Positions 5,455-28,940 of a stretch of 32,541 bases of DNA are shown in pieces. The translations under genes and the position numbers were made by a program. The notes beneath the pieces are model-generated. The model made no database searches, was not told the DNA's origin, and worked only from the letters and a program-made list of their open reading frames with translations. Source of the DNA: Sulfolobales archaeon (GTDB lineage: Archaea; Thermoproteota; Thermoprotei_A; Sulfolobales; AG1); the NCBI GenBank assembly GCA_038881635.1, contig JAVZPJ010000008.1, positions 1-32,541 of the forward strand, given 5' to 3'. Each line of letters begins with the position of its first letter. Position 1 is the first letter of the stretch.

Positions 5455-7290
5455 ATGGGTGTTGAAAGAATGCTTAAATCACCTGAGCTGGAAGACAGCT
5501 CAAGAAGCCCGGGCATTCCCGCAACAAGAATCCTTCCAGCGCCAGGGTCTTATGATGAGGCTACGAAGACTGTTAAAATTGCCGGGAGAAGTATAAGAGT
5601 TGGAGGTCCTCTTCCTAGAATAGATCCTGAGAATGAGAAGATAGTGAGAGTCACCCAAAGCATATGCCCGTACTGTCAGAGACTTCTACCCGCCATCATC
5701 TATGAGAAAGGTGAGAAGATATATATCAGAAAAACATGTCCAGAACATGGAACCATAGACGAGCTCTACTTCGGAGATTCAAAGCTTTACTATAGATTCC
5801 TCTCCATGGCTCGAGAAGGGAGAGGATCTAGATACGCTTATGTAGAGCTCTCAGCACCGTGCCCCTATAATTGTGGTCTATGCCCTATGCATAAGAGTCA
5901 CTCGGCGCTTACTAATCTTGTTGTCACTAACAGATGTGATCTAGATTGCTGGTACTGCTTCTTCTTTGCTGAGAGAAGTGGTTTCGTGTACGAGCCTACA
6001 CTAGATCAGATAAAATACATGGTTTCACAGCTTATGAAGCAGGGTGTGCCTATTGTGATCCAGATTACCGGTGGAGAACCTACTCTCAGAGAAGATCTTC
6101 CGGAGATAATAAAGCTTCTCAGAGAAATGGGTATAACACATCTCCAGCTTAATACTCACGGGATTAAATTCGCAAGATTATACTGGGAGGATCCTGAGAA
6201 AGCTGTGGCTTATGCTAAGACTCTTAGAGAGAACGGTGTTAACACCATATATATGAGCTTCGACGGTGTCACTCCAAATACTAATCCTAAGAACCACTTT
6301 GAAGTTCCATTCACTTTCGAGGTATTCAGAAAAGCTGGGATGACTAGCGTAGTGCTGGTGCCAGTTCTAATAAGAACTGTTAACGATCATGAGGTTGGAG
6401 ATATAATAAGATTCGCTGCAATGAACATGGATATCGTGAGATCTGTGAACTTCCAGCCTGTAAGTCTTACAGGTATGATGAAGAGATTTGAAAGAGAGAA
6501 GTATAGAATTACAATAGCCGATGCTATAATGAGAATAGAAGAGCAGACTGATGGAGAGATCGATAGAAATCAATGGTATCCAATACCAGCATGCATACCT
6601 ATATCAGAATTCATAGAAGCATTATCTAAATCATTTAAGTTCGAGCTTACAACACATCCACACTGTGGTGCCGGCACCTACGTTTATGTTGATAGAAGAG
6701 GTAGTTCTAATCCTTATGACTTCAGATTCATACCTCTGGGTAAGATGGTTGATATAGAAGGATTCCTAGAATATCTAAGAGATAAGAGTGAGGATCTGAA
6801 GAGCGGAGGTAGTAGAGCTGTTGTAGGAGCTAAGATACTTCTCAGCATGATAACAAGATATATTGAGTGGAAACATGTGCCTGGAGATCTTAAGAAGCTG
6901 CTTCCAAAACTTCTGCTAGATATATTCACGAAGCAGAGTTATGAAGCTTTAGGAGAGTTCCACTATAAATTCCTCTTCCTGGGAATGATGCACTTCATGG
7001 ATCAGTATAATTATGATGTTCAGAGAGTTATGAGATGTGATATACACTATACATCACCTGATGGAAGGATTATACCATTCTGCGCGTTCAATGTACTCCC
7101 AGATCTCTACAGAGATCATGTTATGAAGAAGTATTCAATGAGCTTCGAGGAATATGAGAAGCTCTACGGTCCTGGAAGAGTTGGTGAGAAGGTTAAGTAT
7201 AGAAGAAGTAGAGAGTTGATTGAGAAGATTAGAAATAGCGAGATATATAGGAAGCATTACGAATACTTCCTCAAGAAACACAGAGTCTAA
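5455..7290 (+). CDS. tes: Radical SAM protein, tetraether lipid synthase (Tes) type
   Basis: A large radical SAM enzyme (611 residues) of the MJ0619/Tes group (COG1964), which joins the tails of archaeal diether lipids into membrane-spanning tetraethers. The radical SAM cluster motif is CDLDCWYC (C161, C165, C168), followed by the GGEPT motif at 206-210. Extra cysteines typical of Tes flank it: C71 and C74 (CPYC), C95, and C136, C140 and C143 just before the core. Further cysteines occur late, in HPHCGAG and near IIPFCAF, consistent with several auxiliary metal clusters. Older databases call this family a pterin methyltransferase-like protein. Starts are ATG 5455 or ATG 5470. It converges on the minus-strand gene at 7287 with a 4-nt overlap. 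Paralogues exist in crenarchaea, so exact substrate use is inferred. Confidence 0.85.
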   Translation: MGVERMLKSPELEDSSRSPGIPATRILPAPGSYDEATKTVKIAGRSIRVGGPLPRIDPENEKIVRVTQSICPYCQRLLPAIIYEKGEKIYIRKTCPEHGTIDELYFGDSKLYYRFLSMAREGRGSRYAYVELSAPCPYNCGLCPMHKSHSALTNLVVTNRCDLDCWYCFFFAERSGFVYEPTLDQIKYMVSQLMKQGVPIVIQITGGEPTLREDLPEIIKLLREMGITHLQLNTHGIKFARLYWEDPEKAVAYAKTLRENGVNTIYMSFDGVTPNTNPKNHFEVPFTFEVFRKAGMTSVVLVPVLIRTVNDHEVGDIIRFAAMNMDIVRSVNFQPVSLTGMMKRFEREKYRITIADAIMRIEEQTDGEIDRNQWYPIPACIPISEFIEALSKSFKFELTTHPHCGAGTYVYVDRRGSSNPYDFRFIPLGKMVDIEGFLEYLRDKSEDLKSGGSRAVVGAKILLSMITRYIEWKHVPGDLKKLLPKLLLDIFTKQSYEALGEFHYKFLFLGMMHFMDQYNYDVQRVMRCDIHYTSPDGRIIPFCAFNVLPDLYRDHVMKKYSMSFEEYEKLYGPGRVGEKVKYRRSRELIEKIRNSEIYRKHYEYFLKKHRV

Positions 7291-12197: not shown

Positions 12198-13040
12198 TTG
12201 AAAGCCGGTATATATTTTAAGAAGGGTGTTGGTGTTGCCAGGGATCTAAGTATTAAAATTGCTGAGATGATCTCTTCGAGAGGTTGGGATGTATTCTTTG
12301 ATAGCGAGTTTGCTGGTGAGATTGACATGAGCAGGTTCAAGATCTCTGATCTGAGGGATTTAGATCTGGATTTCATCGTTGTCGTCGGAGGTGATGGAAC
12401 TCTTATAAAGCTTCTCCACAAGCTTGGAGAGAGATCTATACCTATAATGACTGTTAGAATGGGGAGGAGAGGAGTTTTACTCGATGTATCTCCTATAGAG
12501 GTCGAGTCCAGACTAGAGGATCTTTTTAACGGGAGGTATGTTATAAGAAGTTATGAGAGGATCTATGCTGAGATCGAGGATAGAAGTATAAGAACACCAC
12601 CTGCTATAAATGAGATTCTAGTCACACCATCTGTAGAATACATAAGATCCAGAGTTTTAAGATGCACCGTTTATAAGGATGATGCTCTCATATACTCTCT
12701 CGAGGGAGATGGTGTCATAGTTTCAACATCTATAGGATCTACAGCATATTCTCTAGCAGCCGGAGGTCCTCTAGTAGATCACTCACTACCTGTTATGGTG
12801 ATCACACCTCTGCTACCTATAAATCTATGGGTTAGACCTGTTGTTCTACCTATAGATAGTATTGTTAGAATCATGGTTAGAAAGGATTCTATTCCCGCCG
12901 AGATCGTTATAGATGGTAGTGTGAAGATCCCTATTGCTCCGGGAGAGTCTGTGAAGATATCCAAATATCCTCATCCTGTGAGGATTATAAGATTTCACAG
13001 AGATGAGAGTATATATGAGAAGATTTTTGAGAGGAGATAG
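12198..13040 (+). CDS. nadK: NAD kinase
   Basis: This enzyme phosphorylates NAD to NADP. The diagnostic GGDGT is at residues 64-68, and the substrate-binding run EGDGVIVSTSIGSTAYSLAA lies near residues 170-189, followed by the usual ITPLLP segment. The 280-residue length is typical. The start is TTG 12198, with CGGGT just upstream and a TATA-like ATATATAT near 12174-12181. It ends 2 nt before the Nob1 gene, so the two form an operon. A second, distantly related NAD-kinase-like gene (COG3199) lies 1.3 kb away on the other strand. Confidence 0.95.
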   Translation: MKAGIYFKKGVGVARDLSIKIAEMISSRGWDVFFDSEFAGEIDMSRFKISDLRDLDLDFIVVVGGDGTLIKLLHKLGERSIPIMTVRMGRRGVLLDVSPIEVESRLEDLFNGRYVIRSYERIYAEIEDRSIRTPPAINEILVTPSVEYIRSRVLRCTVYKDDALIYSLEGDGVIVSTSIGSTAYSLAAGGPLVDHSLPVMVITPLLPINLWVRPVVLPIDSIVRIMVRKDSIPAEIVIDGSVKIPIAPGESVKISKYPHPVRIIRFHRDESIYEKIFERR

Positions 13041-14298: not shown

Positions 14299-15462
14299 TC
14301 ATGCTACATATCTTGCGGGGATCAGTCTTATGAGAAGTTCTTCTCTGTATCCTGTTAAAGCTCTTACATAGCCTGAGAGCATTCTATCAACTTCTTCATC
14401 TCCTGAGTCTATGTAGAGAACATTAGATCCTCCTAGCTTGCTCATGCTTACCACTGGTATAAGTCCTTCTCTTCCGCTTCTTCTAAAGATCTCTGATGAT
14501 ATCTGTTGATTCCCTCTTCCAATGAGAAATCTGGTTCCGGGAATTGGTGTGAGTATCACACGTATCCTATTATACTCTAGTGCGATTCTCTCTATATCTC
14601 TCCTCGAGAGATCTCTACCCACGATCTTCTTCCTATATATAGCGTCAACACCATAGGCTGTCTTATCTATTGAAAGATACTCGAATATCCTCTTAAGAGA
14701 TCCTCCTGGACCTACTATGTATAGAGATCCTGGATCGCTTTCAAATATCTCGTCCAGATATCTTGCAACACCTTCATAATCAAGATCCCAGTAGTATGAT
14801 ATGGGAGATTTTGAATCCTGTACAAGCTCTAGAGAGTAGGGAGTCATCATAAAACCCCAGTTCTTAAGCTCTATAAATCCTCTCCTAAGAGAATTCTCGT
14901 CAGCATCTACAACAGGTCTTCTGGAGAGAGGGATAGAACCCTCTATATATAGTGAGAGAACTCGAGCCGCTGTCTCGGGACTTCTAGCGAAAACACCGCT
15001 GTAGACCTTGACGCCTGCTGGAATTCCTAGAACAGGTTTCTCGAGATCTCCGGCTTCTCTCAGGGCTTGTAGAATATCTCTAGCTGTTCCATCTCCTCCT
15101 ACGAATAATATGAGGTCGCAATCTCTCGAGTGGTTTCTCACAAATTCTATGGTGTGATCTCTCGTGCTTAATCCATTTACATATCTGCTGTATAGTTTTA
15201 CGCATTCTATCTCTCTGAATAGATCCTTGTACTCGCGAACAATACTACAACCCATAGGATCTTCAGGTATTAAAATCCTGAGATCCTGGATCCTCTCTCT
15301 AGAGAGAGCTTCTAGAAATCTTCTCGCTCTATCGTAAGAACTCATCTTATATCCCTCGGATAGTATCTTGAGAACATCTATCTCATCACTACCTTTAAGA
15401 CCTGGTTCTCCGCCTAGACCTGCTATGGGATTTATTAGAAGACAGATCTTCTTAATGCTCAG
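14299..15462 (-). CDS. NAD-kinase-like protein (COG3199), probable CTG start
   Basis: A kinase-like protein of the diacylglycerol/NAD kinase superfamily, COG3199 branch. GGDGT lies in LILFVGGDGTARD, and GIPAGVKVYS follows. The first ATG (15345) would remove the conserved opening of the family. In frame upstream the sequence reads KKICLLINPIAGLGG, the expected glycine-rich NPIAG motif. That segment is preceded only by CTG (15460-15462) or ATT (15454-15456), with GGAGG about 10 nt before the CTG. The CTG begins 1 nt after the TAA of the PhoH-like gene, so translation is probably coupled. The substrate may be NAD, but COG3199 members are poorly characterised. Confidence 0.85.
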   Translation of the reverse strand: MSIKKICLLINPIAGLGGEPGLKGSDEIDVLKILSEGYKMSSYDRARRFLEALSRERIQDLRILIPEDPMGCSIVREYKDLFREIECVKLYSRYVNGLSTRDHTIEFVRNHSRDCDLILFVGGDGTARDILQALREAGDLEKPVLGIPAGVKVYSGVFARSPETAARVLSLYIEGSIPLSRRPVVDADENSLRRGFIELKNWGFMMTPYSLELVQDSKSPISYYWDLDYEGVARYLDEIFESDPGSLYIVGPGGSLKRIFEYLSIDKTAYGVDAIYRKKIVGRDLSRRDIERIALEYNRIRVILTPIPGTRFLIGRGNQQISSEIFRRSGREGLIPVVSMSKLGGSNVLYIDSGDEEVDRMLSGYVRALTGYREELLIRLIPARYVA

Positions 15463-26292: not shown

Positions 26293-27024
26293 CTAGGACG
26301 GGAGATGGTTTTTAGGAGTTCTGTCTTCTGGTTGAGTGTTTTCTTCTTTGTTTTTATTGTTTTTTATCTTTTCATGTAGCATGTACTTGTCTAGAGTAGG
26401 TGTTATCTCCTGGATCTGCTTTTTATATGTGCTCCACTTCCTTCTTATGAGATATCCTCCGAGTTCTCTTGCTAGTTCTTTGTTTTCCTCCAGCCATTTT
26501 AGTGTTCTTATATCTGATGGATAGCCGGATCCTATGTCTCCAAGAGTTCTTCTAATGCTATCTAGGTGCCAGTCTCTTAGAACCTTAGCTATTATACTTG
26601 CTGCTGCTACTATCAGATGCTTCTCCTCTGCTTCGGCTTCTACATGAACTTCTTTAACTCCTCTGATTCTCTTTAGAATTTCTTCGGTTTTCTTCTCTGG
26701 TTCTACAGCATCGGTGTAGATCTTGTGAGGACATTCTCCTAGACTTATGCAGGCTGTCTCTATGATATTTCTGAAGGTTTCGATCTCTAGTTTATTTAGA
26801 TTAGATCTGTCGATCTCGTAGGGTGATACTACTCTTACTATAACAAGTCTTGCTATAGAGAGCAGTTCTTGGAAGATCCTCTCTCTCTTAGACCTCGAAA
26901 GCTTCTTACTATCTCTCACACCTATCTCAATAAGCTTCTGCATATCGCATTCTCTGATAACGACTCCCGCGATAACCATAGAACCTATGAGAGAACCTCT
27001 ACCAGCTTCATCTAAGCCCATCAC
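26293..27024 (-). CDS. rnhB: Ribonuclease HII
   Basis: This enzyme cuts the RNA strand of RNA-DNA hybrids and removes ribonucleotides from DNA. The active site begins at D5 and E6 in GLDEAGRG, with further acidic residues in IYTDAVE and VLRDWHLD. SKKLSRSKRE and AASIIAKVLRD are family motifs. The 243 residues end in a lysine- and asparagine-rich tail beyond the usual archaeal end. The start is GTG 27024 or the adjacent ATG 27021. Confidence 0.95.
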   Translation of the reverse strand: MMGLDEAGRGSLIGSMVIAGVVIRECDMQKLIEIGVRDSKKLSRSKRERIFQELLSIARLVIVRVVSPYEIDRSNLNKLEIETFRNIIETACISLGECPHKIYTDAVEPEKKTEEILKRIRGVKEVHVEAEAEEKHLIVAAASIIAKVLRDWHLDSIRRTLGDIGSGYPSDIRTLKWLEENKELARELGGYLIRRKWSTYKKQIQEITPTLDKYMLHEKIKNNKNKEENTQPEDRTPKNHLPS

Positions 27025-27593
27025 ATGGTTATCGCAAGCTATATCTCATAACCTGAGTAAGTATAATAACCCTTCGGAATAATAACTTTAATGAGATGAT
27101 GAGTGACTCCAATAATGATAGGATGATTAGTGGACGACGGCTCTGAAGTTAGAGTATGAGGTTTTAATACATAAACATGTTTTAAAGTATTTCAACAAAC
27201 ACTCTTAGTATGCCATGAAAGATCACTAATAGTAGGATGAGTAATAGATCACTAGGATTAGGAGGAGGTTAGAAGCAGGATGTAGAATACAATCATATCT
27301 AGGATATCTACTGGTTAGAAATTCTCCTAGGTTCTGCAGAGTGTGTTCATAGTAATGCTAATAAGAATTATTGAATTGAGATAAACACTAGATTCGTGAG
27401 TTCTCTCTCTAGAGTGTTCCGGCTAGATATAGATTCCAGCCGGTTTTCCAAGAGATTTTAATCTTGAGAATGAAGGGTTATTCTCGGGTTTTATCATTAT
27501 TATCATTATTATCCTACTCCTCTGGGCATCTTATATTTTTGATAGATCCTTGTGTAGAAGAAGAGTTGAGAGTCTTATACAGTGTTCTGGGTG
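27025..27593. other. 569-bp intergenic region with an sRNA candidate
   Basis: No protein gene is supported. The region holds the C/D box candidate at 27096-27146, a partial direct repeat (AGATCACTA near 27221 and 27247) and a CCGGCT/AGCCGG hairpin followed by TTTT at 27419-27447. A TATTATCAT-type repeat occurs near 27494-27512. Confidence 0.4.
27096..27146 (+). ncRNA. Candidate C/D box sRNA
   Basis: The archaeal C/D box layout is complete. C box ATGATGA is at 27096-27102, guide 1 of 12 nt at 27103-27114, and D' as ATGA at 27115-27118. A 4-nt spacer follows, then C' as ATGATTA at 27123-27129, guide 2 of 13 nt at 27130-27142 and D box CTGA at 27143-27146. C and D are perfect, while D' and C' have one mismatch each. 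A TATA-like GTATAATA at 27061-27068 gives a start near 27090. Guide 2 contains GACGACGGC, complementary to GCCGUCGUC of the conserved 16S rRNA helix 34 region. The D+5 rule would place 2'-O-methylation on the G of GCCG, about E. coli G1061. Guide 1 target unknown. Confidence 0.6.
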
Positions 27594-28940
27594 TTATTTT
27601 TTCACAGGTTTTGAGACTAGTTTTTCTAGAGGTATTCTAGCTGATTCTACTCCTCTTATCATCCATAGTAGTGATGCTATGAATCCTATCATCCATAGTA
27701 GTGTTGCGATGTAGAGGAATTGAAGTGCTGTTATGCTTGCCTCAGCTAGTACTACTATAGTGTTTGCAAGCCATGCTATTCCTGTGTTGAGACCTACTAC
27801 CGAGGCTCTGACACCTGTTGGGAATAACTCGCTTTCGAGAGCGCTTAGAGATGCCCAAGCCCATTCTGCGAATATCATGTTTATGAGTAGTGCTGCTAGG
27901 TATATGCCTAGTTCTTTTTCTAGCATGTATAAGATTGTTAGTGCTAGTGCTGTTGCTAAGCCTCCTAGATATGAGTAGAGTGTTGCATGTCTTCTGCTTC
28001 TGTCTATGAGTGGTATTAGTATGAATGCTCCTACTGATGCTCCTAGATTTGATATGAGTATTATCATTGGAGTGCTTTCAATGCCGTATCTGAAGTCTTG
28101 TGCGTATGGTGCGTAGTATGCTATCATGTTGTATGTGAGAATTTGTGTGAATGTTAGTATGATCAGGATCGCGAGTCTGAATAGGTATTCTCCTGATCTG
28201 GTTATATCTCTCAAACCTATCTCTCTAGATCCTCTCTCTATTGAAGTATTTGATGCCTGCTGAGATGGTTTTAAACCTGTTAGTCTGTGTATTATTTCAA
28301 AAGCTTTCTCACTTCTTCCTCTCTCGATAAGCCATCTAGGAGATTCCGGTATGTGGATTCTTGCTAGAGCTACTAGTGATATTAGTACTAGAGCTGAGAG
28401 TGCTAGAGATCTTATCTGGGTTTCCACGTCTTGGTAGAGTCCTGTGTATATCAGGGCTAGACCTGCTATTATGAAGGCTCCTATATTCCAGAAGTTTGCT
28501 GAGAGCATTATAGCTTTGCCTCTATCTCTCGCCGGGATCATCTCGGCTAGAGCTGAGTATGCAGCTCCTACCTCTCCACCTACTCCTAGGTTTATTAGTG
28601 ATGTTGATATTATGAGTGCTTCATATATTCTGTGTAGTAGGAGGAATAATACTGTTCCTATGAAGTATATTGCTAGAGATGTTATGAGGAGAATTCTTCT
28701 GCCGAAGAGATCTGCTAGCCTGCCCAGAGCTATGGCACCTATCATGAATGCTAGAGAGTTTATAGCTAGAACATATATGGCGATGTCGGGTGCTATGAGG
28801 TATAGAGATGCGGGAACTATAGAGAATAGAACTCCATCTAGAAAGAATGTTGCTGATATGATTATGAAAAGCTTCCAATGACCAGATCTCCAGGAGGATC
28901 TATCAAGCATCTCTTGAGCCATGTTCAGTATATCGCTCAA
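27594..28940 (-). CDS. MFS transporter, sugar/metabolite porter type
   Basis: A 448-residue major facilitator with about 12 membrane helices. The loop 2-3 motif is GRLADLFGRR, and PESPRWLIERGR at the centre is typical of the sugar-porter branch, which also includes organic-acid and aromatic-acid carriers. A second GxxxDRxRR-like motif occurs as IPLIDRSRRH. The TTG start follows GGTGATT, a full match to the anti-Shine-Dalgarno region, 5 nt after GGTG. It follows the membrane protein gene by 236 nt on the same strand. The substrate cannot be told from sequence. Confidence 0.9.
   Translation of the reverse strand: MSDILNMAQEMLDRSSWRSGHWKLFIIISATFFLDGVLFSIVPASLYLIAPDIAIYVLAINSLAFMIGAIALGRLADLFGRRILLITSLAIYFIGTVLFLLLHRIYEALIISTSLINLGVGGEVGAAYSALAEMIPARDRGKAIMLSANFWNIGAFIIAGLALIYTGLYQDVETQIRSLALSALVLISLVALARIHIPESPRWLIERGRSEKAFEIIHRLTGLKPSQQASNTSIERGSREIGLRDITRSGEYLFRLAILIILTFTQILTYNMIAYYAPYAQDFRYGIESTPMIILISNLGASVGAFILIPLIDRSRRHATLYSYLGGLATALALTILYMLEKELGIYLAALLINMIFAEWAWASLSALESELFPTGVRASVVGLNTGIAWLANTIVVLAEASITALQFLYIATLLWMIGFIASLLWMIRGVESARIPLEKLVSKPVKK

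Follow-up and report, generated by a model that had tools for sequence, protein, structure and literature searches.

Background

The question raised by this locus is whether a short array of box motifs in an intergenic gap of a Sulfolobales archaeon is a C/D box sRNA gene and, if so, which rRNA nucleotides its two guides would direct to methylation. The gap, 569 bases long, separates rnhB from a sugar/MFS transporter gene in the window (the whole stretch of DNA analysed, 32,541 nucleotides), which comes from an archaeal genome of 1.4 Mb that is 97% complete. A first-pass annotation had proposed a C/D box sRNA at 27096-27146 with helix 34 of the 16S rRNA as the target of its second guide. Spectinomycin binding is tied to this helix; the present analysis has no bearing on drug response.

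The C/D box sRNA class is well known; the combination of guides is unusual. We propose that the RNA probably directs methylation of two nucleotides in the head of the small subunit, 16S G921 through guide 1 and 16S G1013 through guide 2, in a fibrillarin/Nop5-dependent manner. This prediction is derived from sequence comparison, and the two guides contribute to it unequally.

Results

The locus and its boxes

The scan pattern combined a C box (RTGATGA), a D' box (NTGA), a C' box with at most two mismatches and a D box (CTGA), with guides of set length between them. Applied to both strands of the whole window, it returned a single match, at 27096-27146 (Table 1). Dinucleotide-shuffled windows are expected to yield 0.025 such matches each by chance, a value that serves as a guide and not as a strict probability, since the scan criteria were chosen with the match already known. 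The order C (RUGAUGA), D', C' and D at set spacing that characterizes archaeal C/D box sRNAs is present, with one mismatch in C'. The textbook spacing reported earlier is therefore correct for all four boxes, which are unique in the window, but C' is non-canonical, having T instead of G at its sixth base. A k-turn requires a pair between base six of the C box and base one of the D box (PMC7994747). We extended this rule from C/D to C'/D'; considering that D' starts with A, the required Watson-Crick pair is preserved as U-A despite the T in C'.

Table 1. Coordinates of the candidate sRNA, its parts and the neighbouring genes (positions of the window)
Feature	Position	Strand	Basis or remark
rnhB (RNase HII), divergent neighbour	26293..27024	(-)	Pfam PF01351, E 1.9e-43
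TATA-like element TATAATAA	27062..27069	(+)	sequence; partly kept in the same-genus copy
C box ATGATGA	27096..27102	(+)	four-box scan; retained in relatives
Guide 1 (D' guide) GTGACTCCAATA	27103..27114	(+)	predicted target 16S helix 31, N+5 = own G921
D' box ATGA	27115..27118	(+)	four-box scan
C' box ATGATTA	27123..27129	(+)	four-box scan; U-A pair possible between its sixth base and the first of D'
Guide 2 (D guide) GTGGACGACGGCT	27130..27142	(+)	most likely target 16S helix 34, N+5 = own G1013
D box CTGA	27143..27146	(+)	four-box scan
Sugar/MFS transporter gene	27594-28940	(-)	other border of the gap

The TATA-like element, noted earlier about 28-35 nt upstream, is present 27-34 nt 5' of the C box, and its position suits a start near 27092. 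The predicted self-fold of the sRNA is not unusual (z -0.44). Downstream of the sRNA, the gap contains a GC-rich inverted repeat (CCGGCT...AGCCGG, within 27419-27488) and a terminator-like hairpin with a T tail (27463-27488, plus strand). Elsewhere in the window, two different NAD kinase-domain ORFs lie close together (12198-13040, plus strand, and 14299-15345, minus strand), and 5455-7290 (plus strand) encodes a radical SAM protein with an HMPTM N-terminal zinc ribbon.

A copy of the sRNA was found in the one other member of the genus that was examined (G001), with 81% identity across query bases 13-89. The C, D' and D boxes are retained in the alignment, as are guide 1 and C' for the most part and the final seven bases of guide 2; the flanks decay, and the TATA-like element is only partly preserved. 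As in the window, the copy is divergent from an RNase HII-like ORF, which was identified by reading its start, MSLSDKKLVMGIDEAGRGP. The proposed sRNA is thus upheld by its architecture, by conservation in a relative and by synteny.

The covariance search recommended in the first-pass annotation gave no such support: an Rfam search of the window returned nothing at the gathering threshold and sub-threshold matches only. The score for sR46 (RF01130), 22.9 bits, falls short of the gathering score (50 bits) and does not establish membership; this family aligns with the C box and the D' guide (GAUGAuGAaUGAaUCCAAU), but the D guide is not common to both.

Guide 1 and helix 31

Guide 1, which ends at D', forms 10 contiguous Watson-Crick pairs with ATTGGAGTCA of the genome's own 16S rRNA (numbering of positions starts at base 1501 of L001); a set of 150 shuffled guides contained no equally good match to the 16S rRNA. 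The base opposite the fifth guide position from D' is G921, in a Watson-Crick pair. Together with its C and D' boxes, guide 1 occurs in many families of the order: a sequence model matched 131 of 247 relatives at E<=0.1, a count that includes weak and partial matches. It is also present in other Thermoproteota, e.g., in Vulcanisaeta and Geothermarchaeota records. The sRNAs with a helix 31 guide across the order share with the window sRNA the C box, the D' guide (TGACTCCAAT) and the overall size; their D guides differ in most relatives. One such D guide, GAGCTCCAACCCTTA, was judged by eye to complement 16S AAGGGGTGGAGC, which lies a short way upstream of the guide 1 site.

Helix 31, through guide 1, is accordingly the best-supported of the predicted targets. 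It was missing from the first-pass annotation, which assigned a target through guide 2 only. In S. solfataricus the tip of this helix carries m1acp3-pseudouridine (PMC11698992), and sequence comparison suggests that the hypermodified residue equals U925 of the present 16S rRNA. If so, guide 1 covers it, and the sRNA would need to act ahead of this modification.

A possible second target of guide 1 lies in the 23S rRNA, where CTGGAGTCAC near position 864 offers 9-10 bp of complementarity. We do not prefer this site, as the three guide bases beside D' would stay unpaired and the pairing relies on a base that is not constant among relatives.

Guide 2 and helix 34

The assignment of guide 2 had been based on nine bases complementary to GCCGUCGUC. 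This sequence is absent from the genome's own 16S rRNA, which reads GGCCGUCGCCAGC at the proposed site; within GCCGUCGCC, only the G-U pair and GCCGUCG are unbroken. Without gaps, guide 2 forms a U-G pair and seven Watson-Crick pairs followed by a mismatch, a score that is unremarkable against shuffled guides across the whole 16S rRNA (fraction 0.49). The guide pairs with helix 34 when one A is bulged (UGG-A-CGACGGCU): 11 pairs then form, namely G-U and 7 bp, the bulge and 3 bp. At -19.1 kcal/mol this duplex is the best in the genome's own 16S and 23S rRNA, the next best having -18.8. Shuffled guides equal it in 3.4% of cases at distances of up to 100 nt from the guide 1 site and in 43% over all rRNA, so that the match taken alone is weak evidence.

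The argument for helix 34 comes from relatives. The order-wide pattern GATGNNNGGNGACGGCYNTGA, with at most one mismatch, was found 100 times among the matches listed; the reversed control yielded 17. Of 214 genomes of the order, 82 contain the guide TGGTGACGGCT flanked by C-like and D boxes; they represent 10 of 11 families, and the guide takes either position. The core in these 82 genomes is TGG[TCA]GA[CT]GG, and the variable place is T in 72 of them. Judging from sRNA sequences common to named loci and other order members, the order includes Ignisphaera, Metallosphaera and other Sulfolobaceae, which suggests Sulfolobales in the GTDB sense. Complete C/D box sRNAs carry the helix 34 guide beside D' at five loci (L009, L111, L122, L126, L179) and beside D at two (L112, L118). 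The order-wide form GTGGTGACGGCT makes 11 contiguous pairs with helix 34 of the present 16S rRNA (-21.0 kcal/mol), and guide 2 departs from it by a change of T to AC. In the same genus, the guide of G001, UGGAGACGGCU, has its second-best 16S match at the same nucleotide as guide 2 and its best 16S duplex at the guide 2 site, one 23S site being marginally stronger. Because the guide family is conserved across the order, helix 34 with G1013 is the best reading of guide 2, and we consider it the most likely target. The earlier choice of helix was probably right, albeit not for the reason given.

Two further candidates were set aside. Pairing of guide 2 with the 23S rRNA (8 bp at position 99, and others) did not rise above shuffles, and a BLAST match resembling guide 2 in another genome (G013, L005) was discarded as it lacked a clear C box.

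One may suppose that the sRNA is real and that guide 1 is its sole working guide, guide 2 being an orphan helix 34 guide or one in decay. The extra A of this species would then break the duplex; the departure from the order-wide form and the unremarkable ungapped match fit this view, and orphan guides are common (PMC7994747). We regard it as unlikely, since no duplex in the genome's own rRNA is better than the bulged one and the seven guide 2 bases beside D are preserved in both members of the genus. It is nevertheless a stronger rival than a switch of guide 2 to tRNA-Val (nucleotides 5-14, N+5 = G7) with guide 1 still on 16S. Owing to the AC change, guide 2 can form 10 contiguous pairs, 9 of them Watson-Crick and one G-U, with each of the three tRNA-Val isoacceptors; however, 12% of shuffled guides do equally well against tRNAs, a mismatch falls at guide position 2 and the guide of G001 lacks this match, so we hold the switch to be quite improbable. 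As to a chance arrangement of boxes with no gene behind it, relaxed C/D searches do give false positives (PMC7994747), but the low expectation per window, the syntenic conserved copy and the membership of both guides in order-wide families make it hardly credible.

Several observations concern the helix 34 guide and its site in relatives. At two loci of one Sulfolobaceae genus (g29; L179 and L180), the sRNA with this guide seems to overlap the 3' end of the upstream coding sequence. Many archaeal C/D box sRNA genes overlap the 3' ends of coding sequences likewise. The 16S gene of G001 (L037) is about 3.0 kb long, and eight blocks of it align to the 16S rRNA of the window's genome with insertions between them. 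One insertion, of about 709 bases, lies exactly at the start of the guide 2 target (GTGCAT / GGCCGTCG) and holds an ORF of 215 aa, perhaps a homing endonuclease. The 16S gene of a genome of the same family (G004, L036) is about 2.35 kb long and diverges shortly past helix 34; it probably contains insertions too.

A possible composite of two guides

Among the order members examined, the helix 31 and helix 34 guides occur in one sRNA only in this genus. In a genome of the same family (G003) they reside in separate sRNAs (L078 and L113). The order-wide sRNAs with a helix 34 guide (e.g., L111, L122 and L179) also carry TGGTGACGGCT framed by C-like and D boxes; in those examined it is mostly the D' guide and no helix 31 guide accompanies it, whereas in the window sRNA it is the D guide and has the extra A. 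The window's genome showed no second carrier of either guide: a search for another copy of its own helix 34 guide gave 12 matches with at most three mismatches versus 10 for the control, and the locus inspected (L176) had no clear boxes.

Discussion

The gap very probably contains an archaeal C/D box sRNA gene, whose RNA would measure about 55 nt. At its C/D and C'/D' k-turns, this RNA would recruit L7Ae, Nop5 and fibrillarin; the genome contains adjacent fibrillarin and Nop5 genes. Guide 1, on helix 31, would direct 2'-O-methylation of G921, beside the hypermodified uridine at the helix tip, and guide 2, on helix 34, may direct methylation of G1013. We take these nucleotides to correspond approximately to E. 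coli positions 962 and 1061, respectively.

The RNA shares box order, spacing, two guides and genomic machinery with the known archaeal dual-guide C/D box sRNAs (L7Ae/Nop5/fibrillarin RNP) and, like them, has its predicted N+5 targets less than 100 nt apart in the 16S rRNA (PMC4644070). It differs in combining a helix 31 with a helix 34 guide, an arrangement seen in no other member examined. Dual guides mostly target sites within 100 nt of each other (PMC7994747), and the 92 nt between G921 and G1013 agree with this rule. Considering that both targets lie in the head domain, the RNA may bridge the two segments in folding, i.e., it could also act as a chaperone that holds helices 31 and 34 together.

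It is tempting to propose that the window sRNA is a genus-specific composite in which the two guides were joined by module exchange, that it is the sole carrier of either guide found in this genome and that it possibly bridges helices 31 and 34 during folding. Exchange of guide modules has been described for other archaea (PMC4644070). We offer this proposal tentatively, at somewhat less than even confidence.

Archaeal C/D box sRNAs are under-annotated. The present case would provide a testable example of guide-module exchange, in which a helix 34 guide that serves as D' or D guide of different sRNAs in 10 families is here joined to a helix 31 guide; and 16S G962 and G1061 (E. coli numbering) become candidates for conserved methylation sites in Sulfolobales.
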